From Deltaproteobacteria bacterium (GTDB taxonomy: Bacteria; Myxococcota_A; Bradymonadia; REDH01), in NCBI GenBank assembly GCA_007693585.1, contig REDH01000063.1, positions 1-64,000 of the forward strand: a stretch of 64,000 nucleotides of DNA, in the 5' to 3' direction. A program made the position numbers and the translations under genes. The notes beneath the pieces were generated by a model. The model had not been told where the DNA came from. It saw nothing but the letters and a program-made list of their open reading frames with translations, and did no database searches. Below, piece by piece: positions 1 through 31,719 of this stretch. Position 1 is the stretch's first letter. Each line of letters begins with the position of its first letter.

Positions 1-96
1 GGTTCGGGCTCTGGCTCGGGTTCGGGCTCTGGCTCGGGTTCGGGCTCTGGCTCGGGTTCCGGCTCGGGTTCTGGTTCCGGCTCCGGTTCCGGTTCG
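1..96. repeat. 18-bp tandem repeat encoding the TonB Pro-Glu spacer
   Basis: Three perfect copies of GGTTCGGGCTCTGGCTCG occupy 1-54, followed by shorter degenerate versions to about 96. On the minus strand they encode alternating Pro and Glu. The repeat may continue beyond the window edge. Such arrays can change copy number by slippage, which would change spacer length without breaking the frame. Confidence 0.85.
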
Positions 97-296
97 ACCT
101 CGAACGCGATGGTGTAGACCAGCGGCTCGTCCGGCGCCCCGTCGTGGCCGAGGAACGCGCGATTGGCGGCGAAGATGCCCACGAGCGCGGCGTGCACGAG
201 TACGGCTGCCCCGAGGATGAGCATGGCGTACACGGGGCGGGGCAGCCGGGTGCCAGGCGTGTGCGCGAGGGGATCATATCGGCGGGGAGCGGTCAT
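1..296 (-). CDS. tonB: TonB-family energy transducer, N-terminal part (cut by window edge)
   Basis: Reading leftward from the ATG at 294-296, the protein has a basic N-terminus, then one hydrophobic segment (about residues 22-43, containing AMLILGAAV), then a long Pro-Glu repeat that runs off the window. This is the usual TonB layout: an inner-membrane anchor followed by a rigid periplasmic (PE)n spacer. The C-terminal domain that contacts TonB boxes lies outside the window. The start overlaps the exbD stop (ATGA), so the two are translationally coupled in an exbB-exbD-tonB operon. Family knowledge: TonB passes ExbB/ExbD proton-motive energy to outer-membrane transporters. A TolA-like role cannot be excluded without the C-terminus. 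Confidence 0.8.
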   Translation of the reverse strand, partial: MTAPRRYDPLAHTPGTRLPRPVYAMLILGAAVLVHAALVGIFAANRAFLGHDGAPDEPLVYTIAFEVEPEPEPEPEPEPEPEPEPEPEPEPEPEPEPE

Positions 297-727
297 CGGG
301 GTGTCGAGGTCCCCTCTGCGGGTCTTCGCTCGATGTTGAGCTGGTAGGAGCGCATGCCGGCCTGGATCACGAGGTCGAGCACATCGACGACGATGCCGTA
401 CTCGGCGCCGCGATCGCCGGCGATGATGGCCTGGGTGGCGGGGTCGTTCGCGACCTCGTTGCGGAGGGCCTGGAGCAGTGCATCGCGCTGGACGGGCGTG
501 CCGTTGAGGCGGAGGCTTCCGTCGGACTCCACGGCGATTCCGACGGTGGAGGCGGTGGCTTCACCGCCGGAGGCGGCGGCGGGGAGGTTCACCTGAATGG
601 AGTGGGAGACGATGTAGCTGCTGGTCACGAGGAAGATGATCAGCAGCACGAGGGCGATGTCGATGAAGGGGATCATGTTGATCGACGCGATCACGTCGTT
701 GTCCCCGGAGTCGATGGGGCCGGCCAT
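293..727 (-). CDS. exbD: ExbD/TolR-family biopolymer transport protein
   Basis: A 144-residue protein of typical ExbD length. A short cytoplasmic N-terminus containing SINMIPFIDIALVLLIIFLV gives the single transmembrane helix, with the Asp that is the family's proton-relay residue. A periplasmic domain follows (IQVNLPAAASG ... AIIAGDRGAEYGIVVDVLDLVIQAG). It lies 5 nt after exbB and its stop overlaps the tonB start by ATGA. It should act at the inner membrane with ExbB and TonB to use the proton gradient. Sequence alone does not separate ExbD from TolR; the adjacent TonB with a PE spacer favours ExbD. Confidence 0.9.
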   Translation of the reverse strand: MAGPIDSGDNDVIASINMIPFIDIALVLLIIFLVTSSYIVSHSIQVNLPAAASGGEATASTVGIAVESDGSLRLNGTPVQRDALLQALRNEVANDPATQAIIAGDRGAEYGIVVDVLDLVIQAGMRSYQLNIERRPAEGTSTPR

Positions 728-732
728 GGGGA

Positions 733-1434
733 TTACTCGCTGTGCTCGGGTGTACGGCGCTCGTGGAGGAGGGCCACGAGGGTTCTCAGCAGCAGGTCGG
801 TGCCGGTGACGATTCGGTTCACGCGGCTCTTGAGCACGTTGAAGAAGATGATGGCCGGTATGGCGACGAGGAGGCCGACGCCGGTGGCGACGAGGGCCTC
901 GGCGATGGCGCCCATGACGCCTTCGGACGGTCCTCCGGCGGCGCCGTCCGCGTCGAGGTTGCGCAGCTGGTCGAAGGCCATGATGACGCCGATGACGGTG
1001 CCGAAGAGTCCGATGAACGGGGCATTGGAGCCTACGGTGGCGAGGAAGGGGAGGCCGCGTTCGTAGCGGAGTCGTTCGGTACCGATGGCGCCACGGCACA
1101 GTTCCTCGACGGCGTGGGGCCCACGTTCCATTTCGCGGACGCCGTAGGCAAGGACTCTGCCTTCCATGGACTCGTCCTGCTCGAGGTGGGCGAGCAGCGC
1201 GTCCGCCTCGCCTTCGGGCACGTGGTCGAGGATGAGTCGTCGGAGGCGTTCGCGGTCCGCGTCGGCGCGCCGGAGGAAGACAAGGCGCTCGACGAGGATG
1301 GCAACGGTCCCGATGCTGAGGAAGACCAGCAGCCACAGGACCCACTCGGCCCCGCCCCGCGCGAAGTCGAGGAGAACGTTGGTGAGCCAGCCGGCCTGGA
1401 CGCCTTCACTGGCGAGCAAGATGGACGTGGGCAT
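733..1434 (-). CDS. exbB: ExbB/TolQ/MotA-family proton channel protein
   Basis: A 233-residue integral membrane protein. One helix lies near residues 28-50 (WVLWLLVFLSIGTVAILVE). A cytoplasmic loop follows, then the family's conserved C-terminal pair of helices (LATVGSNAPFIGLFGTVIGV and EALVATGVGLLVAIPAIIFF). The GLFGTVIG motif and the small-residue third helix define the MotA/TolQ/ExbB channel family. The start MPTSILLAS was chosen because the upstream extension in this frame is arginine- and proline-rich and not family-like. It is the first gene of the exbB-exbD-tonB operon and is divergent from the lipoprotein/nucleotidase operon on its right. Confidence 0.9.
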   Translation of the reverse strand: MPTSILLASEGVQAGWLTNVLLDFARGGAEWVLWLLVFLSIGTVAILVERLVFLRRADADRERLRRLILDHVPEGEADALLAHLEQDESMEGRVLAYGVREMERGPHAVEELCRGAIGTERLRYERGLPFLATVGSNAPFIGLFGTVIGVIMAFDQLRNLDADGAAGGPSEGVMGAIAEALVATGVGLLVAIPAIIFFNVLKSRVNRIVTGTDLLLRTLVALLHERRTPEHSE

Positions 1435-1854
1435 GGGGTGTGGTGTCCGGAGATGGGGGAGATGGGTGCCGCCGGTGCCCCGGCGTTCGGTTCGGTGGAC
1501 GTTGCTAGGTTGGGCTGTTGGTCGCTGCAAGCGACATTTCGTTGCACGAGCAACGGCGTGATGCATTGCGGAGCACCCTCCTCCTGGCGGATTTCCGGCG
1601 GGGGGCCGACTTCATGGGGAGAGAGGGTCGCTCCGTGACGTCGATGCGACGCTGGGGTCAAGTGTTGAACAACGGCGGCAACCGCTTTACTTGCTCCCAC
1701 CACGCGAATACGGGGTGGCTGCAGGTCGCCCGGGGAGTTCCTGGCGGGCCTTGCGCTGCGAGGGGATTGCTCGCGGTCGCTGGATTCACCGGACTCGGGG
1801 TTGCTCGTCATGCGTCTTCATTCACGGTCATGGTTCTTCGGGAGGGGTTCGGCT
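1435..1854. other. 420-bp divergent intergenic region
   Basis: This non-coding stretch separates exbB (leftward) from the five-gene envelope operon (rightward). It holds a possible leftward promoter at 1502-1530, a purine-rich GGAGGGG at 1841-1847 acting as ribosome site for the rightward operon, and an alternative ATG at 1810 for that operon. No convincing rightward -35/-10 pair and no RNA gene was seen. Confidence 0.6.
1502..1530 (-). promoter_or_regulatory. Candidate promoter of exbB-exbD-tonB
   Basis: On the minus strand TTGCAG (1525-1530) is followed after 17 bp by TAGCAA (1502-1507), about 68 bp upstream of the exbB ATG. The -35 box matches well; the -10 box matches only partly. The assignment rests on position and spacing. 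Confidence 0.3.
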
Positions 1855-4656
1855 GTGCAGGCTGTCCGGCTTTCGGTGTTGTTCCTTCTGGTGGTGCTCG
1901 TTGCGGCATGCAGTGGTCGGGAGACATCGGGCGAGGATACGCGCGTTCCGCCGGTGTCGACCTCGAACGGCCCGAGCGATACGTTCACCGACGATCCCGG
2001 GCGCCTGACGGTGTTCGATCTTCGCAATCCGGCATCGGTCAATCGGCCGTCCCTCGGTGCGGATGTCGAGCTGCGACGTGTGGTGATCTCCGCGATCGAC
2101 ACGTTCCAGGAGGTGGATGACGATCGCCGTCGAACGGGGAACTTCTGGGTGCAGGAGCGGAACGGCGGGGAGTTCAGCGGCATTCACGTGTTCAACGGCG
2201 CTGCGGACGAGCCGCCGGTCGTGGACATGGAGGGGTTCTCGGTGGGGGACGAGGTCACGGTGCGGGGTGTGTACGGCGAGGCGTTCGGACGCGCGCAGAT
2301 CACGGTGCAAGCGGTGGAGCGCACGGGTACGGCGACGCTCTCGCCGGCGGTGGTCAGCGCAGCGGACGTGGCGACCGGCGGGTTGCTGGGTCGGGAGTAC
2401 GAGAGTGTGCTCGTGCGCGTCGAGGACGTTGCGGTGCTCGAGGGGAACGCCGGTTTCGGCCGGTTCCGGCTGACCGGGGACCTGTTGGTGGGCAACAACC
2501 TGTTTCGGCGCGCCGACTTTCCGCCACCGACGGGGCTCGCCTTCGAGTCCGTGACGGGGGTGATGGACTTCTCCTTTGACGAACGAGCGATCCTGCCTCG
2601 ATCGGCGGAGGACTTCGAGGACGGGGAGATCCCGCAGGGTGAAGTCTACAGCATCGAGTCCCTGCGGGATCCGGCCAACGACCTGCGGCCGTCCTCCGGG
2701 ACACCGGTGCGGGTCGAGGGCGCGGTGGTGACCGCTGTGGATCGATTCCGTGAGGTGGACGATGACCGGGTCCGCACGGGTTCGTTCTTCGTGCAGAGTC
2801 CGGAAGGCGGCCCGTACAGCGGGATCTACGTGTTCAACGCGGGTGGGGACCGGGTCGATGTCGACACGCTGGAGCCCGGCAACCTGGTGACGCTGGACGG
2901 CATCTACGAGGTGTTCTTCGACTTTGACCAGATCACCGTGACGTCCTTCGAGGTGACCGGCGAGGCTCCGGTGCCCGCAGCGGAGGTGGTGGCCCCTGCG
3001 GACATTGCCACGGGATCGGCCAGCGCGCGGCAGTGGGAGAGTGTCCTGGTGCGGGTGGAGGACGTGGATGTCACGAATTCGAATGCGGGATTTGGCCAGT
3101 TTCAGGTGACGGGCGGGCTGCGGGTCGGCAACAACCTGTATCGCATCCCGACGGCGCAGCGCGAGGTGGGCCAGTCCTTCTCCCGGATCGACGGTATCCC
3201 GGTCTTCACGTTCGACGAGCACGTGCTGATGCCCCGGTCCGAGGCGGACGTGGTGGCGGGGGCGGCCCCGCCTGCGGAGTCGGTGACGGTCGGAGCGCTT
3301 CGGGACCCGGAGAGCCGTCCGGCCTTCGGAACGGTGGTCGAGTTGGAGAGCGTGGTGGTGACGGCCGTGGATCGCTACCGGCAGCCGGGGGTCACGAACA
3401 ACCGGGTGAACCAGTTCCTGGTCCAGGATCAGGGGGGCGGTCCGGACAGTGGACTCTTCGTGTTCAATCAGTATCGCAGCCAGTCATCGACCTGGACGGT
3501 CGACATCGGCGACCTTGCGGTGGGCGATGTCATCCATCTGCGGGGCAGTTTCACGCGCTTCCCGGACAACGAGTCCGGACGGCTTCAGCTGCAGGTTCAG
3601 GCATTCGAGCGAGTGGCCACGGCCGACGCTCCGATCGTGGCGGATCTCTCGCTCGATGATTTCGTGTCGGGTGATTCCGTGGTTCTCGGACCCCTCGTGG
3701 ACAACCTGGTCTCGATCCCGGCGTTCAGCGTGACATCCACGGCAGCCTACGCCGACGGCGGAGATGTCGGCATCACCGACGGTGGTATACTGAACAACGA
3801 GTTCATGGCGCTTTCGACGCTGTCCGAGGGGGACAGCTTCGACGGAGCCGTGGGCATCCTCGTGCGCACGGTCTCGGGAGGGGAGACGACCTTCAAGCTT
3901 CTGCCACGCAGCGCGGAGGACCTGGACGGGGAGTTCGTGGAGCCGACGGAGCCGACGGAGCCGACGGAGCCGACGGAGCCCGAGTTTCTGACGGTGCGCG
4001 CGCTGAAGGATCCGGCGCTGGCATCCGACCGTCCGGCCTTCGGCGCTCGCATTCGCCTTGAGGGGGTTGTCGTCACGGCCGTCGATCGGTTCCTGCAGCC
4101 TTCGACTGGCTCGAACAACCGGGTGAACCAGTTCTGGGTCCAGGACCCGGAGGGTGGTGCCTGGTCGGGGATTTACGTCTTCAACCGCTTCAGCCAGGGG
4201 AGTCATGAGGTTGACCTCGGAGAGCTTGCCCCGGGGGACGTCGTCACGGTCGAGGGCAGTTTCTCGCGCTTTCCCGACGATGATCGGGGCAAGCTTCAGG
4301 TGGTGGTATCGTCCTTCACGGTGACCGGAACAGCGCCGGTGCCGGAGCCGGTGCCCCTGGACGCGGCGGAGCTCGGCAGCAACGATGTCGAGACCCTGGC
4401 TCCCTGGGAGGGGCAGTTCGTGGTCCTCGAAGACGTGGAGATCGTCAGCGACGCCAATCTGGCCGGCTTCGGGGATCTTGAGCTGGAGGGCGGTGGCTTG
4501 CTGCACGAGGAGATCTTCGGGCTTGCCGACGTGCCGGTTCCATCCGCGTGGCAGCGGGTCACTGGACTCCTCGACCACATCGCGCCCGGATCCGGCCCGA
4601 GGATCTACAAGGTCCTTCCTCCCGACGCGGAGGCCATGATCCCGGCGGAGGACTAG
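1855..4656 (+). CDS. Lipoprotein with four tandem OB-fold-like repeats
   Basis: A 933-residue predicted lipoprotein: signal sequence LSVLFLLVVLVAAC with the acylated Cys at 19. The GTG start at 1855 is preferred because GGAGGGG sits 7 bp upstream; an in-frame ATG at 1810 would add 15 residues. The mature part holds four units of about 215-230 residues starting near residues 50, 263, 475 and 710. The first half of each reads like the OB-type domain of secreted nucleases of the ExeM/YhcR kind (VVVTAVDRF, FWVQDPEGG, SGIYVF, GDVVTVEG). In units 1, 2 and 4 a second half follows with (W/Y)E(S/G)-x(2)-V-x(2)-E-D-V. The second half of unit 3 is divergent. An EPT linker precedes unit 4. No nuclease catalytic domain is visible, so binding of nucleic acid or another polyanion at the surface is inferred, not shown. 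Confidence 0.75.
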   Translation: MQAVRLSVLFLLVVLVAACSGRETSGEDTRVPPVSTSNGPSDTFTDDPGRLTVFDLRNPASVNRPSLGADVELRRVVISAIDTFQEVDDDRRRTGNFWVQERNGGEFSGIHVFNGAADEPPVVDMEGFSVGDEVTVRGVYGEAFGRAQITVQAVERTGTATLSPAVVSAADVATGGLLGREYESVLVRVEDVAVLEGNAGFGRFRLTGDLLVGNNLFRRADFPPPTGLAFESVTGVMDFSFDERAILPRSAEDFEDGEIPQGEVYSIESLRDPANDLRPSSGTPVRVEGAVVTAVDRFREVDDDRVRTGSFFVQSPEGGPYSGIYVFNAGGDRVDVDTLEPGNLVTLDGIYEVFFDFDQITVTSFEVTGEAPVPAAEVVAPADIATGSASARQWESVLVRVEDVDVTNSNAGFGQFQVTGGLRVGNNLYRIPTAQREVGQSFSRIDGIPVFTFDEHVLMPRSEADVVAGAAPPAESVTVGALRDPESRPAFGTVVELESVVVTAVDRYRQPGVTNNRVNQFLVQDQGGGPDSGLFVFNQYRSQSSTWTVDIGDLAVGDVIHLRGSFTRFPDNESGRLQLQVQAFERVATADAPIVADLSLDDFVSGDSVVLGPLVDNLVSIPAFSVTSTAAYADGGDVGITDGGILNNEFMALSTLSEGDSFDGAVGILVRTVSGGETTFKLLPRSAEDLDGEFVEPTEPTEPTEPTEPEFLTVRALKDPALASDRPAFGARIRLEGVVVTAVDRFLQPSTGSNNRVNQFWVQDPEGGAWSGIYVFNRFSQGSHEVDLGELAPGDVVTVEGSFSRFPDDDRGKLQVVVSSFTVTGTAPVPEPVPLDAAELGSNDVETLAPWEGQFVVLEDVEIVSDANLAGFGDLELEGGGLLHEEIFGLADVPVPSAWQRVTGLLDHIAPGSGPRIYKVLPPDAEAMIPAED
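3940..3975 (+). repeat. 9-bp tandem repeat (GAGCCGACG x4) coding an EPT linker
   Basis: Four perfect in-frame copies of GAGCCGACG encode Glu-Pro-Thr repeats (residues about 696-707) between the third and fourth domain repeats of the lipoprotein. This is a flexible, extended linker of the kind found in secreted proteins. Confidence 0.9.
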
Positions 4657-4660
4657 AGGC

Positions 4661-6907
4661 ATGGTGATGAGGGCTACGGATGGACGACCCGCCTTGGGCC
4701 CCTGTTCCCGACCGATTCTGGTGGCCGGGTTCACGGTCCTCGCGTTGCTCCTTGCGGGGTGTGCCATCCAGGAGGGACAGCCGCGCGAGCTGCCGGATGC
4801 GCTCTCCCTGACGATTCTTCATACGAGTGACTGGCATTCCCGTCTGCTGCCGTACGACATGGACGTCGTGCGAACTGACCAGAACCTCGGACTGCTGCCG
4901 GAGAATGCCCCGTTCGGAGGCGTCGCCCGTCTCGCCCACGTCATCGAGCGGGAGCGGGCGAACGCCGGCCGGTCCATCTACCTGGACTCCGGTGACTGCT
5001 TTCAGGGCGCGCCGATCTTCAATCTCTTCCGGGGCGAGGTGGAGATTCGTGCGATGTCCCTGCTTCGTCCGGACGGCGTGGCGCTGGGCAACCACGAGTT
5101 TGACGAGGGGACGGCCCGCCTCGTGGAGGTATTGCACGAGTTCGGTGACTTCCCGATGCTCGCGGCGAACTACCGGTATCGGCCACCGACCCGGGACCCC
5201 CGGGATCCTGAAGGCCCCTGGCTGGATCACGTCCTGCGTCCGTTCAATGTCGTGGAGAAGGATGGGCTTCGCATCGCGATCATCGGCGTAGGAAACTTCT
5301 CCTCGCTGTCGTCGATCACGTTCGGGGACAATTCGATGGGCATCGTCCCGATCAACACGGTCGAGGCGGTGCAGCAGTACGCCGACCTGTTGCGTCCGAC
5401 GGTGGATCTCGTCGTGGTCACGTCGCATGCGGGCCTCGCCGAGGACGAGTTCCTGATTCGCAATACACGAGGAATCGACGTGGTGATGGGCGGCCACCTC
5501 CATGTCATCCTCGATCCCCCGCGGGTCATCGAGGATGCCGAAGGCGAGCCGGTGGTGCTGTCCCACGGAGGAGCGTTCACGAAGTATGTCGGTCGACTGG
5601 ATCTGGCCATCGAGCGAAGCCCGGACCCGATTCGTCCGTTCCGGGTGGTGAGCCACACCTATCGGGCGATCCCGATCGACAGCCGGCTTCCCGAGTGGAC
5701 ACCGATGGTGCGGTTGCTCGAGCCGTACGTCATGGAGATGGCGCGCACGCTGGATCTGACCCGGATCATCGCGTATGCCCCCCAGCGCGTGATGAGATTC
5801 GGGGCATCCGGAGGGGACAGCCCCCTCGGCAACATCGTCTCCGACTCGATCCGGTTTCGCAACCGGGTCGAGACGCAATTCGCCGCCACGAACTCTCTTG
5901 GCATTCGGGCGGACATGCCACAGGGGCCGGTCACGCTCGAGCAGATGTACAACGTGTTCCCGTTCCCGAATTCGATCACGACGCTGAAGATGTCGGGCAA
6001 CGAGGTTCAGGAGTTCCTCAACGTCAACGCGCGGCGCTCCAGCGGTCGCGGGTGTGCGACGCAGCTCCAGGTGTCGGGGATCAGCTTTACGATGGACTGC
6101 AGCGTCAGCCCCGCCGTGGCCACGGACATCCTGATCGATGGCGAGTCGCTTTACGCGAACCGCTTCTACACCCTGGCCACGAACGACTACATCTCCCGCG
6201 GTGGCTCGGGGTTTCGGCTGCTTCAGTTCAACAACACGCAGCAGGACACCGGGGTACCCATCCGCGACTCGACCATCGACTACATGAACCAGTTTCCGTC
6301 CTGCCTGTCGCGGTGCAGCGATCGCGGACTGGACGAGGACACCTGTCCACTGCTCGCCGACTGCAGGCGGGACCTCGCCGCATACAACGGGCGGGTCTGT
6401 GATGGCTTCGAACCCCTGGGTGACCGTGAGCACTGCATTCGTGACCAGGCACCGCGTTGTCTGTCGGCGGAGTTCTCGTCCGAGAGCCTCCTGGAACGCT
6501 GCATCCGGACCGCGGCCGACGCGGCGGAGGGCTGCGACGGGTTGTTCCGGCGGGCGGACCGGGAGGCGTGCGTGGAGCGTGCGAGAGACGCCGTGCTGGA
6601 TAGCGGCGTGTGCGATGGACGCGACCCGGTCTCTCCGCGAGAGGCCTGTGCGAGAGAGCGGGGGGCAGAGGCCTGTCTGGCGCTGGCCGCGGAGTCCCCT
6701 CGCGATCGGTGCAGGCGTCGGGCCGCGGATGACGCGGAAGAGATCTGTCTCACGGTTCCCTGTCTCGTCGGGGAGAGCGAGGGGCGAATTTCGCGTCGCC
6801 TCCCGACGAACAAGTCCTTGTGGGAGTTGGAGCATCAGGGGGGGATGGATGCTGCGGAGTTCATGGACTGGATCCAGGCCGAGTACAACGATGAAGCCTG
6901 TTACTGA
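4661..6907 (+). CDS. 5'-nucleotidase / metallophosphoesterase lipoprotein with Cys-rich C-terminus
   Basis: A 748-residue lipoprotein (VLALLLAGC, acylated Cys 34) of the UshA/CpdB/NT5E family, which hydrolyses nucleoside monophosphates or 2',3'-cyclic nucleotides outside the cytoplasm. Dinuclear metal motifs are visible in order: SDWHS (near 54-58), GDCFQGAP (near 111), GNHEFD (near 143), TSHAG (near 256) and GGHLHV (near 277). The C-terminal substrate-binding domain follows to about residue 540 (NSLGIRADMPQG, YNVFPFPNSITTL). The remaining 200 residues are an unusual Cys/Arg/Asp-rich tail. It starts 4 nt after the upstream lipoprotein and overlaps the next lipoprotein by 17 nt, so one operon is likely. 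Substrate specificity cannot be read from the sequence. Confidence 0.9.
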   Translation: MVMRATDGRPALGPCSRPILVAGFTVLALLLAGCAIQEGQPRELPDALSLTILHTSDWHSRLLPYDMDVVRTDQNLGLLPENAPFGGVARLAHVIERERANAGRSIYLDSGDCFQGAPIFNLFRGEVEIRAMSLLRPDGVALGNHEFDEGTARLVEVLHEFGDFPMLAANYRYRPPTRDPRDPEGPWLDHVLRPFNVVEKDGLRIAIIGVGNFSSLSSITFGDNSMGIVPINTVEAVQQYADLLRPTVDLVVVTSHAGLAEDEFLIRNTRGIDVVMGGHLHVILDPPRVIEDAEGEPVVLSHGGAFTKYVGRLDLAIERSPDPIRPFRVVSHTYRAIPIDSRLPEWTPMVRLLEPYVMEMARTLDLTRIIAYAPQRVMRFGASGGDSPLGNIVSDSIRFRNRVETQFAATNSLGIRADMPQGPVTLEQMYNVFPFPNSITTLKMSGNEVQEFLNVNARRSSGRGCATQLQVSGISFTMDCSVSPAVATDILIDGESLYANRFYTLATNDYISRGGSGFRLLQFNNTQQDTGVPIRDSTIDYMNQFPSCLSRCSDRGLDEDTCPLLADCRRDLAAYNGRVCDGFEPLGDREHCIRDQAPRCLSAEFSSESLLERCIRTAADAAEGCDGLFRRADREACVERARDAVLDSGVCDGRDPVSPREACARERGAEACLALAAESPRDRCRRRAADDAEEICLTVPCLVGESEGRISRRLPTNKSLWELEHQGGMDAAEFMDWIQAEYNDEACY

Positions 6908-8291
6908 TGCCCGGTGGTCGCACCGCGGACACCGCGTCGTCCAGCACGTTGTCCTCGTTGGCAGCCTCGTGCTGCTCGCGGCGTGTGCGGAGGACCCCGT
7001 GGTTCCGGATCGTGGGGCGCTGAGCGGTTTCGAGGTTCGTCTCGTCGCGCCGGTCGAACCGGGTTCCCCTGCTTTCCCCCTCCCCTTCACGACGATGCCC
7101 CTGGAGGTGGAACTCGACATCATTGCGCGGGACCGGCGTGGGGAGCGCATGAGGGGGTTCGACGGGGAGGTTCGACTGACGAGCGTGCCGGGCAGGATTG
7201 CCGAGGCCGAGCGAACGGTTCGGCTTGTCGAGGGACGCGGATCTGCGCGTGTGGGGCTGCAGTACACCTATGGCGACACCCGAATCTGGGTCCAGGAGCA
7301 AGCGCCGGAGGGGGAGATGTCGTCCTTCGGGCTGGGCATCAGTCCGCCGCTCTTCTTCGCCGAGCCTCGTGTGCGCAACGTGAGGTTCAACCCGGACAAT
7401 CCTGCCGGGTTGTCGCCGCTCTTCGGCCGTGAGGCGCGGATCGGCGAAGGCATCCTGATGGTGACCAATGTGGTCGCCAACGGGTTCTATGCGACCGATG
7501 TGGGCGACGCGCTGCCTGACTGGAGCACGGGTCGGGAGCCGCGCGGAGTGGGTCAGGAGCCGTGGACATCTCTGTTCGTCTTCACGTTCAACTTCCCGGA
7601 CGGGATCACCATCGGGGACCGCCTGTGCAGTCTGGCGGGCGGGGTGGCCGAGTTTCAGGGGCAGACGCAGCTGACGTTCCCGAACTACATCATCCAGGGC
7701 GTCGGGCGGGTGGGCGAGGTGCCTGACGAGGCCTTTCTGGACCCGGCCGACCCCGGTGCTCCGGGCGCCTGTGCCTACCGGACCGAGGTGGACGGGTCCC
7801 TCGTGCAGGTCCTTCCTCACGTCCTTGACGAGGCGACGCTGGGCGACAACACGCTCGTGCGCGCATGGGACAGCGCGCTGGTGCGCATCGAGGGGGGCGT
7901 GCTGAGCACGCGCTTCGACGACTGCGACTTCGACGGCTCGGGCCAGATCGAGGGCGCGGACGAGCGGGCGTGCCGGAGTCGATGTCAGCGCGATCTCACG
8001 TGTACCGAGATGTCCAGTCTTCGTCAGTTCGACCAGTTCAGCGCATCGGTGGGTGGGATCGCGTTCGAGGTGGCCGATGCGACCCGTGCGGCTGGGTACG
8101 ACCCGCTTGCGGGCTGCGCACCGCACGCGGGGGTGGAAGGTGATCCGGACGATCCGCCGGGTTACCGGTGTGGCGATGCCGGCCGGCAGCTTCGGTCGGT
8201 GACCGGTTCGCTGCGGCTCGTCGACCTCGGAGGTGTGGTGCTTCGCGTCGTCATTCCCCGGTTCGAGACCGACCTGGTGTTCGCTCCATGA
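6891..8291 (+). CDS. Lipoprotein of unknown function with an EF-hand-like loop
   Basis: A 466-residue protein starting at ATG 6891 inside the end of the nucleotidase gene. It begins with a signal sequence ending in LVLLAAC (acylated Cys 32). The mature protein looks largely beta-rich. Near residues 343-358 it has DCDFDGSGQIEGADE, whose D-x-D-G-S-G-x-I spacing resembles a calcium-binding loop, flanked by Cys residues. No family was recognised. The overlap with the upstream nucleotidase and the ATGA overlap with the downstream barrel protein suggest it works in the same envelope complex. An extracellular or surface location is likely but not shown. Confidence 0.75.
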   Translation: MKPVTDARWSHRGHRVVQHVVLVGSLVLLAACAEDPVVPDRGALSGFEVRLVAPVEPGSPAFPLPFTTMPLEVELDIIARDRRGERMRGFDGEVRLTSVPGRIAEAERTVRLVEGRGSARVGLQYTYGDTRIWVQEQAPEGEMSSFGLGISPPLFFAEPRVRNVRFNPDNPAGLSPLFGREARIGEGILMVTNVVANGFYATDVGDALPDWSTGREPRGVGQEPWTSLFVFTFNFPDGITIGDRLCSLAGGVAEFQGQTQLTFPNYIIQGVGRVGEVPDEAFLDPADPGAPGACAYRTEVDGSLVQVLPHVLDEATLGDNTLVRAWDSALVRIEGGVLSTRFDDCDFDGSGQIEGADERACRSRCQRDLTCTEMSSLRQFDQFSASVGGIAFEVADATRAAGYDPLAGCAPHAGVEGDPDDPPGYRCGDAGRQLRSVTGSLRLVDLGGVVLRVVIPRFETDLVFAP

Positions 8292-9991
8292 GGGGCCGTT
8301 CCACTTCCCTTCCCTTCTTCCGTTCCAACCGCCCAGCGAGAACTGCCTTGAGTCCCAAGCGTCTGACAGCCATCGTTCCGCTCCTCGCCCTTCTCATCCC
8401 CGGCACTGTTCTGGGCGAAGAGTCGGTGGAGGAGGCGCCCGAGCGCCGCGGCAGCGACTTCGTGGATACGCGCATCACGTTCGTGTTTTCCGACGACAAC
8501 GTGTTCGCGGGCCCCGGGGAGACGCTGGTGAACAGTCCGGCGCCGGATTTCGGGCCGCGCGACGGAAACTTCTTTCCGTTCGAGAATCTGGACAGCCGCG
8601 ACAGCGGTCAGGAGACGCTGTCGCACCTGGTGCTCTATCGGCAGATGCCCGGCTATCTCCCGAACCTTCACACGGAGGCGGCGCTGGTGCTGCGAACGAG
8701 GCTCTTCGGGCCGGGCAACGTCTCCTTGCAGGACGACGGGTCGTACATCCGGATGGCGCTCGATGTGGGAGGGGGGGGGCGCTCGGCCCTGCCGGTTGAC
8801 CCCGGGCAGACGTCCGCCGACGGGGACCCGGAGGCACTTCCGCGCATGGAGACCGGGGATCGCAACATCGAGCTGGTGCTGTTTCCGTACACCTCGGAAC
8901 GGTTCCGGCTGGGATACGCCTGGGATCTCTCGTGGGGCGGGCGGGATATCTTCACGGAGGTCAATCGGCGCCCGGTGCCTGCGCTTCGCCTGCAGTTCAA
9001 CCACCCTGTCTTCTACGCGTTCGGCGGCGTCAAGACGACGCAGCAGGTCCAGGCCACGGCGGACCCGAGCGACGACGGCTACAACGAACTGCAGGCGTTC
9101 TACGGGTTGCTCGGTGGCTTCGGGTTTCGTCCGATCGACCTGATGACCTGGGAGGTCAACGGGGGCTACTTCCAGTCGGGCACGAACCGGAAGGGGGATG
9201 TGGAAGGTGAGCCGGTCGACACGGCGGGCGTGTCGACACGACTCAGCCTGCATCAGGGCTTCCAGGCGCGGGCGAGCGCGGACTTTCGGCTCGTGCGGAA
9301 CACCCCGGAGCTCTTCGACAGCTTCCTGCGCCCTCCCCCACCGACCCACGAACGCCTGGCATGGCGTCTGAGCCTCGAGGGGTCCATGGTCATGCAGAGT
9401 CTTGGAGACCCCGACCGGATAGGCGGTACCCGGGTCCAGCGGGCGTACGCGGGTGCAGTGAGCGGAACCCTCGGGTTCGGCAACACCAGGATCGGTGTGG
9501 ATGTCCTCAGCCGCAGTCTCGGCTACATGCTGATCAACGTCCCGGGGCTCGACCCGTTCAACGCCTTCTCGGAAGACAGCGAACAGACGCCGGAGGTGCT
9601 CGCCGCGCTCAGTGCGCAGTATACCTTCCGTGGCCCACGCCTGACCCCGGGAGCCCTGGTCGGGGTGCAGTTCCCCGCCACGTACCAGGGCCTCATTCCG
9701 CAGGTGCCCAACCAGCCCGAACAGCTCGCGGGGGAGCAGGTGGTCGTGGTCCGGAGTGCGGACAACTGGGAGCTGCTGCCCACCGGCGAGGACGCGAGGC
9801 CGATCCCCAGCTTCAAGCTGTCGCTCCGATGGGACGCGAGCCCGATGCTGGGCTTCGTCGGTCAGGTCGTTGGCAGTTACGACGACAATCAGGTACGACT
9901 GGTGCGGGATGATCGCACGGGGATCCCGCGACGCGAGTTCCGCGATCCCCTTGTCCTCGGCTTTGCCCTCCTCGCCCAGGCCCGGTTCTGA
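8288..9991 (+). CDS. Putative outer-membrane beta-barrel protein
   Basis: A 567-residue exported protein. The N-terminus has a long basic region, then a hydrophobic core (AIVPLLALLIPGTVLG) and probable cleavage before EES; a TTG at 8348 could be a shorter start. The mature chain alternates polar and hydrophobic residues with aromatic-rich strands (LRLQFNHPVFYAFGG, TWEVNGGYF, AALSAQYTF) and ends in ...LLAQARF, a C-terminal Phe as in many barrels recognised by BamA. No plug domain or TonB box was found, so this is not a classical TonB-dependent receptor. It is coupled by ATGA to the upstream lipoprotein and may be the membrane anchor or porin for the secreted components. Confidence 0.65.
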   Translation: MRGRSTSLPFFRSNRPARTALSPKRLTAIVPLLALLIPGTVLGEESVEEAPERRGSDFVDTRITFVFSDDNVFAGPGETLVNSPAPDFGPRDGNFFPFENLDSRDSGQETLSHLVLYRQMPGYLPNLHTEAALVLRTRLFGPGNVSLQDDGSYIRMALDVGGGGRSALPVDPGQTSADGDPEALPRMETGDRNIELVLFPYTSERFRLGYAWDLSWGGRDIFTEVNRRPVPALRLQFNHPVFYAFGGVKTTQQVQATADPSDDGYNELQAFYGLLGGFGFRPIDLMTWEVNGGYFQSGTNRKGDVEGEPVDTAGVSTRLSLHQGFQARASADFRLVRNTPELFDSFLRPPPPTHERLAWRLSLEGSMVMQSLGDPDRIGGTRVQRAYAGAVSGTLGFGNTRIGVDVLSRSLGYMLINVPGLDPFNAFSEDSEQTPEVLAALSAQYTFRGPRLTPGALVGVQFPATYQGLIPQVPNQPEQLAGEQVVVVRSADNWELLPTGEDARPIPSFKLSLRWDASPMLGFVGQVVGSYDDNQVRLVRDDRTGIPRREFRDPLVLGFALLAQARF

Positions 9992-10020
9992 CCCTGCACC
10001 TTCCATCCGCCGGCCGACCA

Positions 10021-10938
10021 GTGCTGGCCCTCCTTCCCCTGCTCGTCCTTGCCCTCCCGGGGATGATGTCGTCGTGCTCCCGTTCGACGACCGACCCGGC
10101 GCAGGAGATTCCCGCCGAGCTGGTCCTCCCGGAGTGGACCGGTCCATCGAGCGCAACGCTGGCCCTCTGGGCGGAGCGCGATGCGCGAACCGTCGACCTC
10201 GAACTCGGCGGTGAGCTTGGCCGAAGGTTCCTGAGCAGTCGACGGGCCATCCTTCACGACGCGCTGGATCTCCCGCTGCCTGGGGAGGCCGGGGAGCCTC
10301 CACCGGACGCCGAGTCACTGGCAAGAAGCTATGCGGGCGGACTGGAGGCCTGGGCGGCCGCGGAGGGGCCGGAGGCCTTCCACGACATGGGAGCCGCGGT
10401 CTGGCGTGAGTTCCGGCACGCGCTGGAGGCCGGCATAGCGGCTTCGCAGCGCGCGGGCCTGCCGGTGCTGGAATGGGTTGCGTCGAACCCCGAGGAGCCG
10501 ACTGCCATTCGCTTCGCCAGCTGGACCGGCGATTACTTCTTCGCCGCCGAGCGGTTCCGTGTGCGGGCGCCGGATGGGAGCGCCCTCCGGGACGCGGGTA
10601 CAGAGCGCCTGCTGTTCGAGGACTGGTGGACCGCACAACTCCGGGGATCAGGCCGGATCAGCGTGACCATGCCCGAAGCCGTGGAGCGCGATCTGCTGCT
10701 CTTCCGACTGCTGGCGGTACCGGATGCGCCCATCGACGCGCAGATGCGCTGGATCAACCAGCTTCAGCGCGACCATGGCGGGCTCGACGGCCGGCCGGTC
10801 ACGCTCGTGCGGGCCGCCGCCATGATGCGCAGCCGGCAGTTCCGCGAAGCCCGAATGGCCGTGGAGGCAGCTTCGTCGCTCCCCGAGACTCGACGCGAGG
10901 AGCTTCTGCGTCATGTCGATCGTGCCGCCGCGCGCTGA
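10021..10938 (+). CDS. Small putative lipoprotein of unknown function
   Basis: A 305-residue protein starting with GTG at 10021, 29 nt after the barrel gene. The N-terminal hydrophobic stretch ends in PGMMSSC, a plausible though atypical lipobox (Cys 19). The rest looks helical, rich in Ala, Glu and Arg, with a C-terminal RSRQFREARMAVEAASSLP that could be part of a TPR-like hairpin. No family was recognised. It is the last gene of the five-gene rightward envelope operon. Confidence 0.65.
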   Translation: MLALLPLLVLALPGMMSSCSRSTTDPAQEIPAELVLPEWTGPSSATLALWAERDARTVDLELGGELGRRFLSSRRAILHDALDLPLPGEAGEPPPDAESLARSYAGGLEAWAAAEGPEAFHDMGAAVWREFRHALEAGIAASQRAGLPVLEWVASNPEEPTAIRFASWTGDYFFAAERFRVRAPDGSALRDAGTERLLFEDWWTAQLRGSGRISVTMPEAVERDLLLFRLLAVPDAPIDAQMRWINQLQRDHGGLDGRPVTLVRAAAMMRSRQFREARMAVEAASSLPETRREELLRHVDRAAAR

Positions 10939-13239: not shown

Positions 13240-14253
13240 CTATTCCTCCCCGAAGCCGGCCGCCCAGCTCAGGCTCAGCAGCAGGTTGTTGGAGACCTGC
13301 CAGTCCTCGACAAGGGCGGGGATTCGTGCGGCGCGGAACTGGTAGTCGAGGGAGGCCCAGGTCACGAGGCGGAAGGAGAGGGTCGCGGCCACTTCGACGT
13401 TGGCGAGGTCGATGGCGCTTCGGTCATCGTTGGCGAGGCTGTTGTAGAACGGGATGAGTGTCTCCGCCTCGATGCTGTACGTGACGTTTCCGCCCTCGAA
13501 CTCGCCGGTGGCCTCCAGTACGGCCTCGGCGCCGATCTGGTTGAAGCTGCGCAACTCGGCGAGTTCGATGATGTCCGGCGTCTCCTCGTCGTCGGCGACG
13601 ACGAGCTGGCCGTCGGCAAAGACCTGCCTTGCGCCGACGCCGAGCCGCAGCATCGATCGGATCATCGGGTCGTTGCTGGGACGAACGAAGGCACCGACGG
13701 ACTCGCGAAGCGTGAGGGGGCGGAGTGCGTTCGTGAGCCGGATGCGGTCGTCGATGGCCACGGTATCGCCGTCGAGGGAGTAAGCGACATCGTCAGGTCG
13801 CACGTCGAAGCCATGGAACAGTGCGGTATTGAGCTGTGCTCTGGTGAACGGGCCGATCCAGTCCACCTCCGGAAAGTGGTACAGGTAGAGGCTTTCGATG
13901 CGGAGCTCGTCCGCGGTCTTGACGAGTTCCGGGATGGTCGGGGTTCTGCTGAAGGTCTGGCTGGCGCGCAGGGTGTTTCGCAGGCTGTGTCCGTTGCGGG
14001 CGAAGCTCAGCCGGCCATTGACGTTCGTACCGAGGGCGATGGTCGTGCCGTCGCTCTGTCCGACAACCCTGTTGTTGTGGGTGAGCGAGAAGTTTCCGGA
14101 CAGGGACAGGCGTCCGGACCATCCGCTCTCTTCGGGAGCGGCCTCGGGTGCTTCCTCGATCACGAATTCCTGTGCGGCGACGACGGCCGGGGCGGCCAGC
14201 ACGCCCCCGAGGGCCAGGAGGAGCAGAGCGACGACATGGGTGAGTCGGGACAT
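13240..14253 (-). CDS. Exported beta-rich protein, probable outer-membrane barrel
   Basis: A 337-residue protein. Signal peptide: hydrophobic core VVALLLLALGGVLAAPAVVA, cleaved before QEF. The mature part has alternating strand patterns (GRLSLSGNFSLTHNNRV, GTNVNGRLSFARNG, LRNTLRASQTF, FRLVTWASLDYQFRAA), a look shared with the DUF481/DUF3078-type outer-membrane proteins; this is impression, not a match. The start was set at MSRLTHVV because AGGA lies upstream and the earlier frame is Arg/Pro-rich. It is transcribed convergently with the Cys-rich lipoprotein and lies downstream of the IgGFc-like gene on the same strand, 210 bp away. Confidence 0.6.
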   Translation of the reverse strand: MSRLTHVVALLLLALGGVLAAPAVVAAQEFVIEEAPEAAPEESGWSGRLSLSGNFSLTHNNRVVGQSDGTTIALGTNVNGRLSFARNGHSLRNTLRASQTFSRTPTIPELVKTADELRIESLYLYHFPEVDWIGPFTRAQLNTALFHGFDVRPDDVAYSLDGDTVAIDDRIRLTNALRPLTLRESVGAFVRPSNDPMIRSMLRLGVGARQVFADGQLVVADDEETPDIIELAELRSFNQIGAEAVLEATGEFEGGNVTYSIEAETLIPFYNSLANDDRSAIDLANVEVAATLSFRLVTWASLDYQFRAARIPALVEDWQVSNNLLLSLSWAAGFGEE

Positions 14254-14463: not shown

Positions 14464-16551
14464 CTACTCTTCGGTCAGGTTCAGGCCGCCGGGGTAACCG
14501 TAGGAGACGGCACCGGAGTAGCCCGTGACGTAGATGCCGAAGACGTCCGCGCTCTCCACGCGGACAGCGCCCGCTTCGACGGGTACGTACCCGACGCGCC
14601 AGCCGGTGTTGGCAATCTCGGTGAAGGACGACTCGGGCACGGGCTGGTTGTTGACGCGGATGATCTCGTCGCCGGGCTTCACGATGGAGAGCCAGTTCTG
14701 ATTGTAGTTGCGCGGAACGGCGACGAGGTAGTCGCGCCGGAACTGGCTGCGGGGGACCTGGAGGATGAAGGTGGGATCGCCGATGCCGCCGGCGCCGCGG
14801 GTCTGCTGGCTGGTGAGGAACTGGCCGATCATGACGGGTTCGGTGGCGATCAGCTCGAACGACTGCGGAGTGGAGAATTCCACGAACTCGCCTGCGTTGA
14901 GGGTCTGCCCGTGGACTCCGCTGATGGTGGGGTTGGTGGTGATGGAGGTGTTGTCGCGCGCGGCGATGACCCGGTAGAAGTCGGGTTCGGTTCCGCGCGG
15001 CGCGGCCTTGACGACGAGGTACTCGCTGCCCCAGGTGGAGACCGGAAAGAGCTGTTGTTCGAGTCGGTCGGCGCAGCAGGTCTGGTCACCGTCCGGGCCT
15101 CCGCCTTCTCCGAGCACGGCCTGCTTGTGGCCGGCGAACACGGCGATGGGCTGGGTGGACGTGACTCGGGTTCCGGTGAAGTCGCGCGAGGTGGCCCGGG
15201 GAATGAAACCACCGATCAGCTCGATTTCGGAGGCCGATTCGAAGTTGAGAACCTCTCCCTGCTGAATCTCGAATTGCTGGACGGATCGGGCCGGGAACGC
15301 CGGCATGTCCGGTCCGGGCAGGGTGTCGGTGGAGAAGCGCACGGTCACCGTGGTGGTTCCCGGCGAGGTGCCCACGATGGTGAAGTAGCCGAATTGCCCG
15401 TCGTCGGTATCGAGGGGATTGCTCCCGCCTCCGGGCAGGAAGTCGCCGAGGAAATCGAGGTCGGTGCCGGACGGCCAGGTGACGACGAAGTACTCGTTGC
15501 CGAGGGAGGTGTCGGGGAGAAGAAGCGAGGCGTCGTTGGATGCCGCGCCCACGTTGTCGAGGGGCTTGAACTGGTAGGCGGTGACGGGGAGCGAGGTGGT
15601 GATGTGGACGCTGTTCATCGTGCTCCCCGACCCGGAGATGTTCTGGTCCGGGAGCTGAATGGTCGTCGTGCCGTTGGGCGGGATGGTGTAGGTCGACTGC
15701 TCGGGCTGCGCTTCTCCGTAGCTGACGACCTGCACCTCGGTGGTCCGTTCGCTGAGGTTTGCGAGCACCACGGCGGCGAATCGCTGGTCCGGTCGCGAGA
15801 AATCCGTCGGGTCGGCGAACATGGGGAGGTCGACGGCCCAGTAGGAGCAGCCGATGTAGGTTCTCTCCTTGGAGAAGAAGTCGCACGGGTCGTCGCAGAA
15901 GCCCTCGCTGCAGACCTCACCTTCGGCCTGGTTGCAGACGGGACCCGGCGTCCAGCCGGTTCCGTCCTCGTTGCAGATCTCGGTGTCGAGGTCGCTGGCG
16001 CACCGTCGGGAGCCGGGACGGCACGCCAGCTCCTGGCATTGCCCTGCCCAGCAGGTGAGTCCGTCCTCGCAGGGTTCGGTCAGGAAGGTGTTTCCATCTT
16101 CCCCGCAGACGAGCAGTGCGAAGTCGCTGGCGCATCCCTGGACGATCCCCGGTTCGCAGTCCGCAGGTGGAACGCAGCGACCACCGCTGCAGATCTCGTT
16201 TTCGGGGCATGGTCCCGACACGACGAATTCGTCCTCGGGGCAGTCGAGCACCTCTCCGGAGGGAGAACAGGCTCGCTCGCCGGGGCTGCAGGGATCGCCG
16301 GGACGGGCCGCGTCTTCCTGGACGGGGAGATCCGACACGCTGCTGCCTGCCTGTGACCCGACGGCGGTTCCGGCGGTTGGGTCTTCACCCGTCCCGTTGC
16401 CGCCGCGACCGGGAAGGTCGAGGCACTCTCTGGACGTGCACGTCTCCGAAGCGCTGTCACGGCAGCCAGGCACGAGTACGAGCAGGAGGGCCGCCGAGGA
16501 GACGAGCAGGACGAAGCGGATGTGGACCTGCGTGAGAGCGTGGCGAGACAT
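14464..16551 (-). CDS. IgGFc-binding-like Cys-rich lipoprotein
   Basis: A 695-residue lipoprotein (lipobox LVLVPGC, Cys 30). Residues about 70-230 are Cys-rich units (CSPGERACSPSG, CRPGSRRCASDLDTEIC). The remaining part is a long beta-rich region with features of the IgGFc-binding N-terminal domain (YIGCSYWAVDLPMF, FAAVVLANLSE, TTIQLPDQNISGSG, VTAYQFKPLDN, IAVFAGHKQA, GVYVTGYS-like end). This family is frequent in Myxococcota as large surface proteins; binding of immunoglobulin is only the origin of the name. GGAG lies just upstream of the ATG. A good promoter candidate (16635-16663) precedes the gene. Confidence 0.8.
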   Translation of the reverse strand: MSRHALTQVHIRFVLLVSSAALLLVLVPGCRDSASETCTSRECLDLPGRGGNGTGEDPTAGTAVGSQAGSSVSDLPVQEDAARPGDPCSPGERACSPSGEVLDCPEDEFVVSGPCPENEICSGGRCVPPADCEPGIVQGCASDFALLVCGEDGNTFLTEPCEDGLTCWAGQCQELACRPGSRRCASDLDTEICNEDGTGWTPGPVCNQAEGEVCSEGFCDDPCDFFSKERTYIGCSYWAVDLPMFADPTDFSRPDQRFAAVVLANLSERTTEVQVVSYGEAQPEQSTYTIPPNGTTTIQLPDQNISGSGSTMNSVHITTSLPVTAYQFKPLDNVGAASNDASLLLPDTSLGNEYFVVTWPSGTDLDFLGDFLPGGGSNPLDTDDGQFGYFTIVGTSPGTTTVTVRFSTDTLPGPDMPAFPARSVQQFEIQQGEVLNFESASEIELIGGFIPRATSRDFTGTRVTSTQPIAVFAGHKQAVLGEGGGPDGDQTCCADRLEQQLFPVSTWGSEYLVVKAAPRGTEPDFYRVIAARDNTSITTNPTISGVHGQTLNAGEFVEFSTPQSFELIATEPVMIGQFLTSQQTRGAGGIGDPTFILQVPRSQFRRDYLVAVPRNYNQNWLSIVKPGDEIIRVNNQPVPESSFTEIANTGWRVGYVPVEAGAVRVESADVFGIYVTGYSGAVSYGYPGGLNLTEE

Positions 16552-16719: not shown

Positions 16720-17754
16720 CTACGCCTCTTCCTTCGTGTCCTTGCTGCGGGTCGACTCGAGGTGTTCCTGCAGCGCCAGCGCCAGTCGTCGTCCTTCCTC
16801 GTCGAGGGGGGAGAGTCCCCCGTCGATGACGATCTCGGCGAGCAGGTTCCCGGTGCGTTCCCCGCGCTGCACGCCCTTTCCGGTGATGCGCAGGCGAGTT
16901 CCGGACTTCACTCCGGCGGGGAAGCGTGCCACGAACGTTCCGCCGAGCCCATCGACGTCCACGGTGCCCCCGAGCATGGCGGCCAGCGGCGAGATGCGGG
17001 CCTCGGTCACGAGATCGAGCCCCTCTCTCGCGAGGGACGGGTGGGGCTTCACCTCGAGGCGCAGCACGAGGTCGCCGGCGCCCTGTCCTCCGCGCCCTTC
17101 CGCTCCCTTGCCCCTGAGCCGGATGACGTCACCGGTCTCCGCGCCCGGCGGGACCTTGACCGTGAGGGTCTTGCGGGTGTCGACGGTACCGCGACCGCCG
17201 CATGAGGAGCAGCGGCGGCCACCCTCGGCTCCGCTTCCGGCGCAGCGGTTGCACCGTTCCGGTCGAGCGTAGGTGAATCGAGTCTGGAATCCTTTCGCAG
17301 CCTGTTCGAAGTCTGCGGCAAGGCCAAGGTTGATGTCCCGTCCGCGACCGCCCCCGAACGGATTGCCGCCGACGTGGAATCCAGCGCCGTGCGCAGCAGC
17401 GCCGCCACCGAACAGGTCGGACAGGTCGAAGCCTTCGAACATCGACGGGTCGAAGCCTTCGTACGAGAACCCGGCAGGTCCCCCGGCTGAACGGCGGGCC
17501 TGATGGCGCTCCCAGGCTGCGGCGTCGAATCCTTCCTGGAGACCGATGTGTCCGTAGCGGTCATAGCGGGCGCGCTTGTCCGGGTCGGAGAGAACGGCGT
17601 AGGCCTCACCGATGCGCTTGAACTGCTCCTCGGCGTCCTGCCCGGGGTTGGCGTCGGGATGGTGCTCCCGTGCCAGCTTGCGATAGGCCTTCTTCAGGGC
17701 GGCGTCGTCGACGTCCCGCTGGACGCCGAGTGTCTTGTAGAAGTCGTTCTCCAT
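16720..17754 (-). CDS. DnaJ-like (Hsp40) co-chaperone with reduced zinc finger
   Basis: A 344-residue type-I-like J protein. The J domain lies at residues 4-68 (FYKTLGV, HPD at 32-34, RYDRYG), followed by a Gly/Phe-rich stretch (DLFGGGAAAHGAGFHVGG). Only two C-x2-C-x-G-x-G motifs follow (CNRCAGSG and CSSCGGRG) where DnaJ normally has four, enough for one zinc site. Then come the C-terminal substrate-binding domains (VKVPPGAETGDVIRLRGKG, GTRLRITGKG). It should stimulate the ATPase of an Hsp70. The start MENDFYKTLG matches the family. No dnaK or grpE is adjacent, which suggests a specialised rather than housekeeping DnaJ. Confidence 0.88.
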   Translation of the reverse strand: MENDFYKTLGVQRDVDDAALKKAYRKLAREHHPDANPGQDAEEQFKRIGEAYAVLSDPDKRARYDRYGHIGLQEGFDAAAWERHQARRSAGGPAGFSYEGFDPSMFEGFDLSDLFGGGAAAHGAGFHVGGNPFGGGRGRDINLGLAADFEQAAKGFQTRFTYARPERCNRCAGSGAEGGRRCSSCGGRGTVDTRKTLTVKVPPGAETGDVIRLRGKGAEGRGGQGAGDLVLRLEVKPHPSLAREGLDLVTEARISPLAAMLGGTVDVDGLGGTFVARFPAGVKSGTRLRITGKGVQRGERTGNLLAEIVIDGGLSPLDEEGRRLALALQEHLESTRSKDTKEEA

Positions 17755-17824
17755 GATTGCTTCCGGACCTGTCGGGGATTGGGTGGTTGGCGCGGGGCAG
17801 GCGCCTCTCCGTTCGTTCTGCTGG

Positions 17825-17852
17825 AAGCTAGCCACCTCGAGCGGTGCGTCAA
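17825..17852 (-). promoter_or_regulatory. Candidate promoter of the dnaJ-like gene
   Basis: On the minus strand TTGACG (17847-17852) is 16 bp from TAGCTT (17825-17830), about 70 bp upstream of the ATG at 17754. A vegetative sigma-70-type promoter is suggested; no CIRCE-like repeat was seen. Confidence 0.4.
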
Positions 17853-17976
17853 AGGAGCCGTCGTGCTGGGCGTCTGTACAGCGCGAGGGGCGCGTGGTAC
17901 GTCCCGGCAGAACCCCCAGGGGCCTGTGCTCCCGCGAGGAGCGGGCGCGGCCCGGCCCGTCGGAAAGGATGCGTCA

Positions 17977-30954: not shown

Positions 30955-31719
30955 TCAATCCCGCGACCGGACACCGAGGCGAGCCACTTCCCCCTGCAGA
31001 GCCGACAGGACCTCCGACGCGCGGCCCGGCAGGAAGATGTCCGTGACGCCATCGGTCAGCGCGCTCGGCTCGAGGTTGACCTCGATGACGCTGGCCCCGG
31101 CTTCACGGGCCATCACCGGCAGGGATGCCGCAGGCTCCACGAGTCCGCTGGTGCCGACCACCAGAACCGTTCGCGCGGACGCCGCGAGTGCTTCGGCGCG
31201 CTCCCTGGCCTCTCGGGGGATGATCTCCCCGAAGAGCACCACGGTTGGCTTCAGCGGCCGGCCACAGGCGCAGTAGGGGACCCCGTCCTCGTCGGCGGGG
31301 TGGCTACCGGGATACCGGGCGCCACACCACAGGCAATGCAGGAGCTGGGCGTTGCCGTGGTAGTCGACGACCCGCCGGGACCCGGCCCGCTGATGCAGGT
31401 TGTCGATGTTCTGGGTCACCACCCCCTGCACGACCCCTGCGCGCTCGAGCTCCATGAGGCTATGGTGTGCGGGATTGGGCTCCGACCGGGACAGTACCCG
31501 GTGCACTTCCCGGAACATGGCCCACACCCGGGCGGGCGCGGCCCGGAACGCATCGATCGTGGCGTGGTCCATCGGGTCGAAGCGCTCCCAGAGCCCACCA
31601 CCGCTGCGGAAATCCGGGATTCCGCTCTCCACCGAGATGCCCGCGCCCGAGAACGCCACGACCCCCCCCTCGGCGATGCGTGCGGCGGCCTGTTCCAATG
31701 ATGGGGTGATTCTGCTCAT
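30955..31719 (-). CDS. cobB: Sirtuin, NAD-dependent protein deacylase
   Basis: A 254-residue Sir2-family enzyme that removes acyl groups from lysine using NAD. Visible motifs: VAFSGAGISVESGIPDFRS (NAD binding), TQNIDNLHQRAG, the catalytic His in VVDYHGNAQ, a zinc site formed by CLWC and CACG, and LVVGTSGLVEPAASLP. Its ATG overlaps the stop of the upstream MopE-like lipoprotein gene (ATGA), so it is translationally coupled to a secreted-protein gene, which is an odd pairing. The upstream in-frame extension was rejected as non-coding. The class assignment (deacetylase or other deacylase) is open. Confidence 0.93.
   Translation of the reverse strand: MSRITPSLEQAAARIAEGGVVAFSGAGISVESGIPDFRSGGGLWERFDPMDHATIDAFRAAPARVWAMFREVHRVLSRSEPNPAHHSLMELERAGVVQGVVTQNIDNLHQRAGSRRVVDYHGNAQLLHCLWCGARYPGSHPADEDGVPYCACGRPLKPTVVLFGEIIPREARERAEALAASARTVLVVGTSGLVEPAASLPVMAREAGASVIEVNLEPSALTDGVTDIFLPGRASEVLSALQGEVARLGVRSRD

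Follow-up and report, generated by a model that had tools for sequence, protein, structure and literature searches.

A conserved nucleotidase-lipoprotein-barrel operon of Myxococcota proposed to scavenge nucleotides at the outer membrane without TonB

Three tightly coupled genes near one end of a contig from a Deltaproteobacteria bacterium of the Myxococcota (GenBank REDH01000063.1, assembly GCA_007693585.1; window positions 1 to 64,000, the whole stretch analysed) encode a 5'-nucleotidase lipoprotein of the UshA/CD73 family (N, 4661-6907, + strand), a lipoprotein with a Ca-binding-like loop (L, 6891-8291, +) and a predicted outer-membrane beta-barrel (B, 8288-9991, +). The same genes recur in this order across the phylum, and N-L-B is, on balance, probably a conserved operon with which Myxococcota scavenge nucleotides at the outer membrane independently of TonB. 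A first-pass annotation, made from the sequence alone, had read these genes as part of a five-gene envelope unit energised by an adjoining ExbB-ExbD-TonB operon. A check of the open reading frames bore out its gene list, strands, coordinates and couplings (a gap of 4 nt between an upstream OB-repeat lipoprotein gene and N, a 17-nt overlap of N and L, and an ATGA overlap of L and B), and its domain assignments were confirmed as ExeM/NucH-type OB, Metallophos plus 5_nucleotid_C, MotA_ExbB, ExbD and the Ca-like loop DCDFDGSGQIE. The tight coupling and the nucleotide theme of the proposed module stood, but its core was reduced from five genes to three, since the OB-repeat gene is optional and a small lipoprotein gene at the other end is a loosely linked neighbour. 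The annotation had known of no named system with such a gene set, and no description of the module was found in the literature covered by open full texts.

Recurrence of N-L-B across the Myxococcota

Contigs were scanned for relatives of B, using the best 80 of 156 matches, and gene order was tallied over 81 distinct loci; beyond the window, genes were called with a simple home-made program. The order N-L-B was found at 56 loci and N-L-B-B at 6 (together 62/81), and a further four had N-L-x-B, where x was an OB-repeat gene in three. Many of the remaining loci were short of genes owing to contig ends, and a profile scan found the order L-N-B at two loci (L122 and L144) and L-B-N at another (L126). 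Median gaps within N-L-B were 7.5 and 53 nt. Of 379 Myxococcota genomes, an even sample of the phylum, 129 carried B and 123 carried L, and both were present in 120; Fisher's test gave p 2e-83, a value that is overstated because shared ancestry is ignored. Most of the genomes used in the analysis were metagenome-assembled genomes (MAGs). When 58 relatives were searched separately with L and with B, both searches returned the identical 16 genomes, and the neighbourhoods of these relatives showed nucleotidase, L and B in order. Because the order recurs across the phylum, N-L-B is not a chance grouping; it is a real module, carried by roughly one in three of the Myxococcota genomes searched. The gene-order search suggested by the first-pass annotation recovered N-L-B phylum-wide; most of these loci are without the OB-repeat gene.

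The records found with B were labelled Myxococcota, Myxococcales, Polyangium or Labilithrix, or carried the older labels Deltaproteobacteria or Proteobacteria; one Oligoflexales-labelled record nested next to a Myxococcales one in the barrel tree. The window barrel was sister to the f3 and f4 barrels of the same class (support 100/99), a placement in the tree that fits vertical descent with losses and is also compatible with transfer. The two tandem barrels of the f2 genomes (L081-L086) fell in separate clades. At L076-L080 and other f3 loci, including those of animal-gut MAGs, the barrel was followed by a conserved membrane-type protein and an AAA ATPase. A role of this membrane protein as a nucleotide carrier was a by-eye guess and was dropped, there being no Pfam match. 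A flanking PTS/rapZ/rpsO/pnp neighbourhood, also judged by eye, looked like chromosomal context and was set aside.

The nucleotidase, the OB-bearing lipoproteins and the barrel

N carries Metallophos (PF00149, 4e-9) and 5_nucleotid_C (PF02872, 1.4e-28), which places it in the 5'-nucleotidase family; among structures of that family the best match was 2z1a (3.9e-49), and the CD73-type entry 4h2f matched at 3e-35. It shares with UshA, CD73, Vibrio NutA and NadN the pair of domains, the metal ligands, the catalytic pair and the residues of the nucleotide site, and differs from them in its predicted lipid anchor, its Cys-rich C-terminal extension and its operon with L and B. In a wide alignment of 69 sequences, the two-metal ligands and the catalytic His/Asp pair (D57, H59, D112, N144, H145, D148, H256, H279 and H281) showed no substitution in the 63-65 rows that have a residue at these positions. 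By alignment, residues R379, N411, R416, F435 and F518 of N correspond to CD73 R354, N390, R395, F417 and F500. The first three were likewise without substitution in the 63-65 rows; F435 was replaced by Trp in one row and F518 by Tyr in four. Since this site is intact, the predicted handling of nucleotides by N is well supported. A second 5'-nucleotidase is encoded elsewhere in the genome, at C205, and N is therefore not the only one in the cell.

The OB-repeat lipoprotein just upstream (1801-4656, +; start possibly at 1855) consists of four double-OB units of about 215 residues each (1996-2640, 2641-3285, 3286-3975 and 3988-4653), as defined by unit alignment. It matched part of NF033681 (ExeM/NucH-type OB) at 1.3e-17 and PF01336 at 1e-5, just below the cut-off. 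The match to the ExeM/NucH nuclease was confined to the OB region, the full-length model scoring 63.9 bits where the cut-off is 300, and no nuclease domain was found in the protein by Pfam and NCBIfam scans. Homologues lie inside the operon at L108, L111 and L159 and are mostly located elsewhere in relatives; the protein is an optional accessory of N-L-B.

L itself is composed of an Ig-like domain (about 7020-7361) and one double-OB unit (about 7371-8288). With hhalign, a 76-sequence L profile matched 15 OB units (probability 98.8, E 4e-17), the Ca-like Cys loop (7917-7973, +; DCDFDGSGQIE...C...C) being aligned as an insertion, and the OB profile also matched L of L111 (E 3e-5) and L of L108 (E 3e-4) directly. 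L gave no match to the four window OB units alone; the relationship appeared only with the wider profiles. The C-terminal half of L is one copy of the OB unit of the OB-repeat protein, with the Ca-like loop inserted, and the loop residues C345, D346, G349, I353, E358, C361, C365 and C371 were invariant in 15 sequences. No Pfam family was found in 15 members of L beyond marginal matches; the L model had a pTM of 0.58, and in a fold search its structural matches to Ig-like domains were weak. OB modules of this type are those of ExeM/NucH/Xds and YhcR, and ExeM/NucH (YhcR-like) units occur in extracellular nucleases (PMC6085458, PMC6746945). The Ig-like plus OB layout of L also recalls the lamin-tail (Ig-fold) plus OB arrangement of ExeM and Xds. 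Unlike those proteins, neither L nor the OB-repeat protein has a nuclease domain, and the OB unit of L carries the inserted loop.

B is predicted to be a plug-less, porin-like outer-membrane barrel of an unnamed family, in agreement with its first-pass description as a barrel without a visible plug. Its AlphaFold model had a pTM of 0.71, with several loops of low confidence and about 16-18 strands as read from the modelled secondary structure. Foldseek returned MOMP, AlgE, LamB, OprD/Occ and ScrY with probability near 1, all of them, as B is predicted to be, plug-less barrels of about that size. The C-terminal residue, read as a predicted outer-membrane targeting signal, was Phe, Tyr or Trp in 85 of 88 barrels. 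No plug domain (PF07715) was found in B by domain scans. In contrast to the porins just named, B belongs to no porin family of Pfam or NCBIfam (the phage OMP-like barrel PF24653 matched 6/21) and is tied to two lipoproteins. The loop between its first two strands, residues 70-112, is well conserved and was modelled with low confidence. Another candidate barrel lies at 13240-14253 (-); its N-terminus is signal-like and its only match, to DUF3078, is below threshold.

Four proteins of the window have lipobox-like sequences: the OB-repeat protein, N, L and the small lipoprotein (10021-10938, +), with, in this order, Ser, Ala, Ala and Ser at +2 and Ser, Gln, Val and Asp at +7. Lys stands at +2 in 8 of 12 inner-membrane lipoproteins of M. 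xanthus, and its extracellular-matrix lipoproteins have Ala at +7 (PMC3222651); the residues in the window are thus of the predicted outer-membrane type, as the first reading required. Across relatives the lipobox was recognised in 49/76 L and 39/68 N sequences, with +2 Lys once in each; the scan was crude, so that unrecognised sequences do not count against a lipoprotein. The outer-membrane fraction of M. xanthus contains the 5'-nucleotidase-family lipoproteins MXAN2470 and MXAN5361 (PMC3222651), which may or may not be orthologues of N. N, L and B would all be placed at the outer membrane.

A proposed mechanism and its alternatives

In the scheme that we propose, N would dephosphorylate nucleoside 5'-monophosphates or related nucleotides close to the outer membrane, L would hold the substrate or tie N to the pore, and B would pass the substrate or the products (nucleoside and phosphate). 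If N and L face outward, B would import the products; if they face inward, B would admit nucleotides and N would trap them by removing phosphate. The OB-repeat lipoprotein could serve as an optional extra binding arm. Direct contact among N, L and B, the compound transported and the choice between the surface and the periplasmic face are what we infer. The arrangement resembles SusCD-type and other TonB-dependent systems, where lipoproteins and an outer-membrane protein also act together in nutrient uptake, but N-L-B is without a plug, without SusD and without a link to TonB. A bolder version, with N-L-B as a phylum-wide porin-type counterpart of SusCD for nucleotides, its enzyme and OB lipoprotein stably bound to a pore of their own that needs no TonB, is tentative and, in our view, less likely than not.

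Several points weigh against nucleotide scavenging by N-L-B. The position of CD73 D506 is occupied by Asn (N524) in all 69 rows, and because of this the substrate range of N may differ from that of CD73. OB folds bind sugars and proteins as well. The TM-scores of B to porins were moderate, about 0.36-0.45 by query length, with about 10% identity, and for this reason its substrate cannot be read from the porin matches. Neither a nuclease nor an inner-membrane carrier of nucleosides or phosphate was found linked to the module. Finally, transport, localisation and enzyme activity are all predictions from sequence and models.

The OB units could instead point to the capture of nucleic acids, in which they would bind DNA or RNA for an unlinked nuclease to cut, N would dephosphorylate the fragments and B would import them. 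Four units of the ExeM/NucH type precede N in the window, and related genes stand within the operon at the three loci named above. However, the OB-repeat gene is absent from most N-L-B loci, the module has no nuclease, and PF03372 was found just once in the genome, in a 274-residue reading frame elsewhere that is too short to hold OB domains too (other nuclease families were not searched). DNA or RNA as starting material is possible and, with no linked nuclease found and the only PF03372 gene lying elsewhere, unsupported, and we consider this route unlikely. The substrate named by the first-pass annotation was retained as far as nucleotides are concerned, but its extension to nucleic acids had the OB modules as its basis.

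It could also be that B is a pore dedicated to displaying or exporting N and L, which it would thread or anchor at the surface in the manner of Slam or another OMP-lipoprotein complex, its own channel being secondary. This would account for the strict co-occurrence of L and B, and the conserved loop 70-112 could be a docking site; but the Foldseek matches were mainly diffusion and substrate porins, with the alginate exporter AlgE among them and no lipoprotein exporter, and this possibility seems distinctly improbable. Still less probable is a function in extracellular purine signalling or in NAD or UDP-sugar turnover instead of nutrition. UshA, CD73 and NadN relatives do act on such substrates (PMC8475336), but a partner pore fits uptake better and signalling genes were not seen next to the module. 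Scavenging of nucleotides by N-L-B remains the preferred reading.

The adjoining TonB operon and other genes of the window

The genes divergent from the OB-repeat gene are ExbB (733-1434, -; PF01618, 5.7e-31), ExbD (293-727, -; PF02472, 9.9e-27) and the N-terminal part of TonB (3-296, -). The contig, C74 in our numbering, ends at base 1 of the window, and TonB is for this reason interrupted, within a Glu-Pro repeat. A search of the same genome found a TonB_C domain at 499-732 of contig C95, in a frame that stays open as far as the start of the contig, which reads EPEPQPEPEP..., the repeat type in which C74 breaks off. TonB is followed on C95 by a 918-residue protein with CarboxypepD_reg, Plug (PF07715) and TonB-dependent-receptor barrel (PF00593) domains, then by a putative lipoprotein and a gene resembling PurM (sequence read by eye). 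Two genomes of the same family without the module, G001 and G002, carry ExbB-ExbD-TonB-receptor-lipoprotein-PurM-like in this order on one contig, with 35-64% identity in G002. As repeat, frame, order and synteny agree, C74 and C95 are likely to be joined here, the junction itself being unsequenced.

In G001 and G003 the divergent neighbour of ExbB shows weak homology to the small lipoprotein (E 3e-6 and 5e-6). A single-sequence search of 57 relatives gave no match for the small lipoprotein, and its weak homologues were found by neighbourhood only; they adjoin ExbB in relatives without the module, and it is a weakly linked neighbour of N-L-B. The OB-repeat gene and N-L-B thus stand, in the window, between genes that are adjacent in relatives, which implies either loss in those relatives or gain in the window lineage. 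Energising of B by ExbB-ExbD-TonB, as first proposed, is extremely unlikely and was rejected: its one support is the divergent adjacency, seen in this window only, whereas the TonB operon has its own plug-bearing receptor and is conserved in G001 and G002 without N-L-B, a profile scan of neighbourhoods found no ExbB or ExbD beside N-L-B at any other locus, and B is plug-less and models as a porin-type barrel. By its synteny the TonB operon is independent of N-L-B.

At 34169-35263 (+) there is a second TonB-like gene, whose 364-residue product has a TonB_C domain. Elsewhere in the window, a 3106-residue open frame at 17503-26823 (+), with codon-position GC of 0.81/0.48/0.79, a bias typical of genuine genes, and TPR matches in its C-terminal third, is probably a giant TPR protein. 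A lipoprotein-like gene at 14464-16551 (-) has a strong IgGFc_binding domain (PF17517, 2.5e-64), and the gene at 31716-33638 (-) a MopE-type copper-binding motif and DUF5648.

The neighbours at this contig edge are two systems, the N-L-B module and the TonB operon; adjacency there does not make one system of them, and a tempting misreading is corrected. Two unnamed families, L and B, which occur in roughly one in three of the Myxococcota genomes that were searched, would gain a concrete role, and the module suggests that members of the phylum, including those of animal guts, may recover phosphate and nucleosides without TonB.

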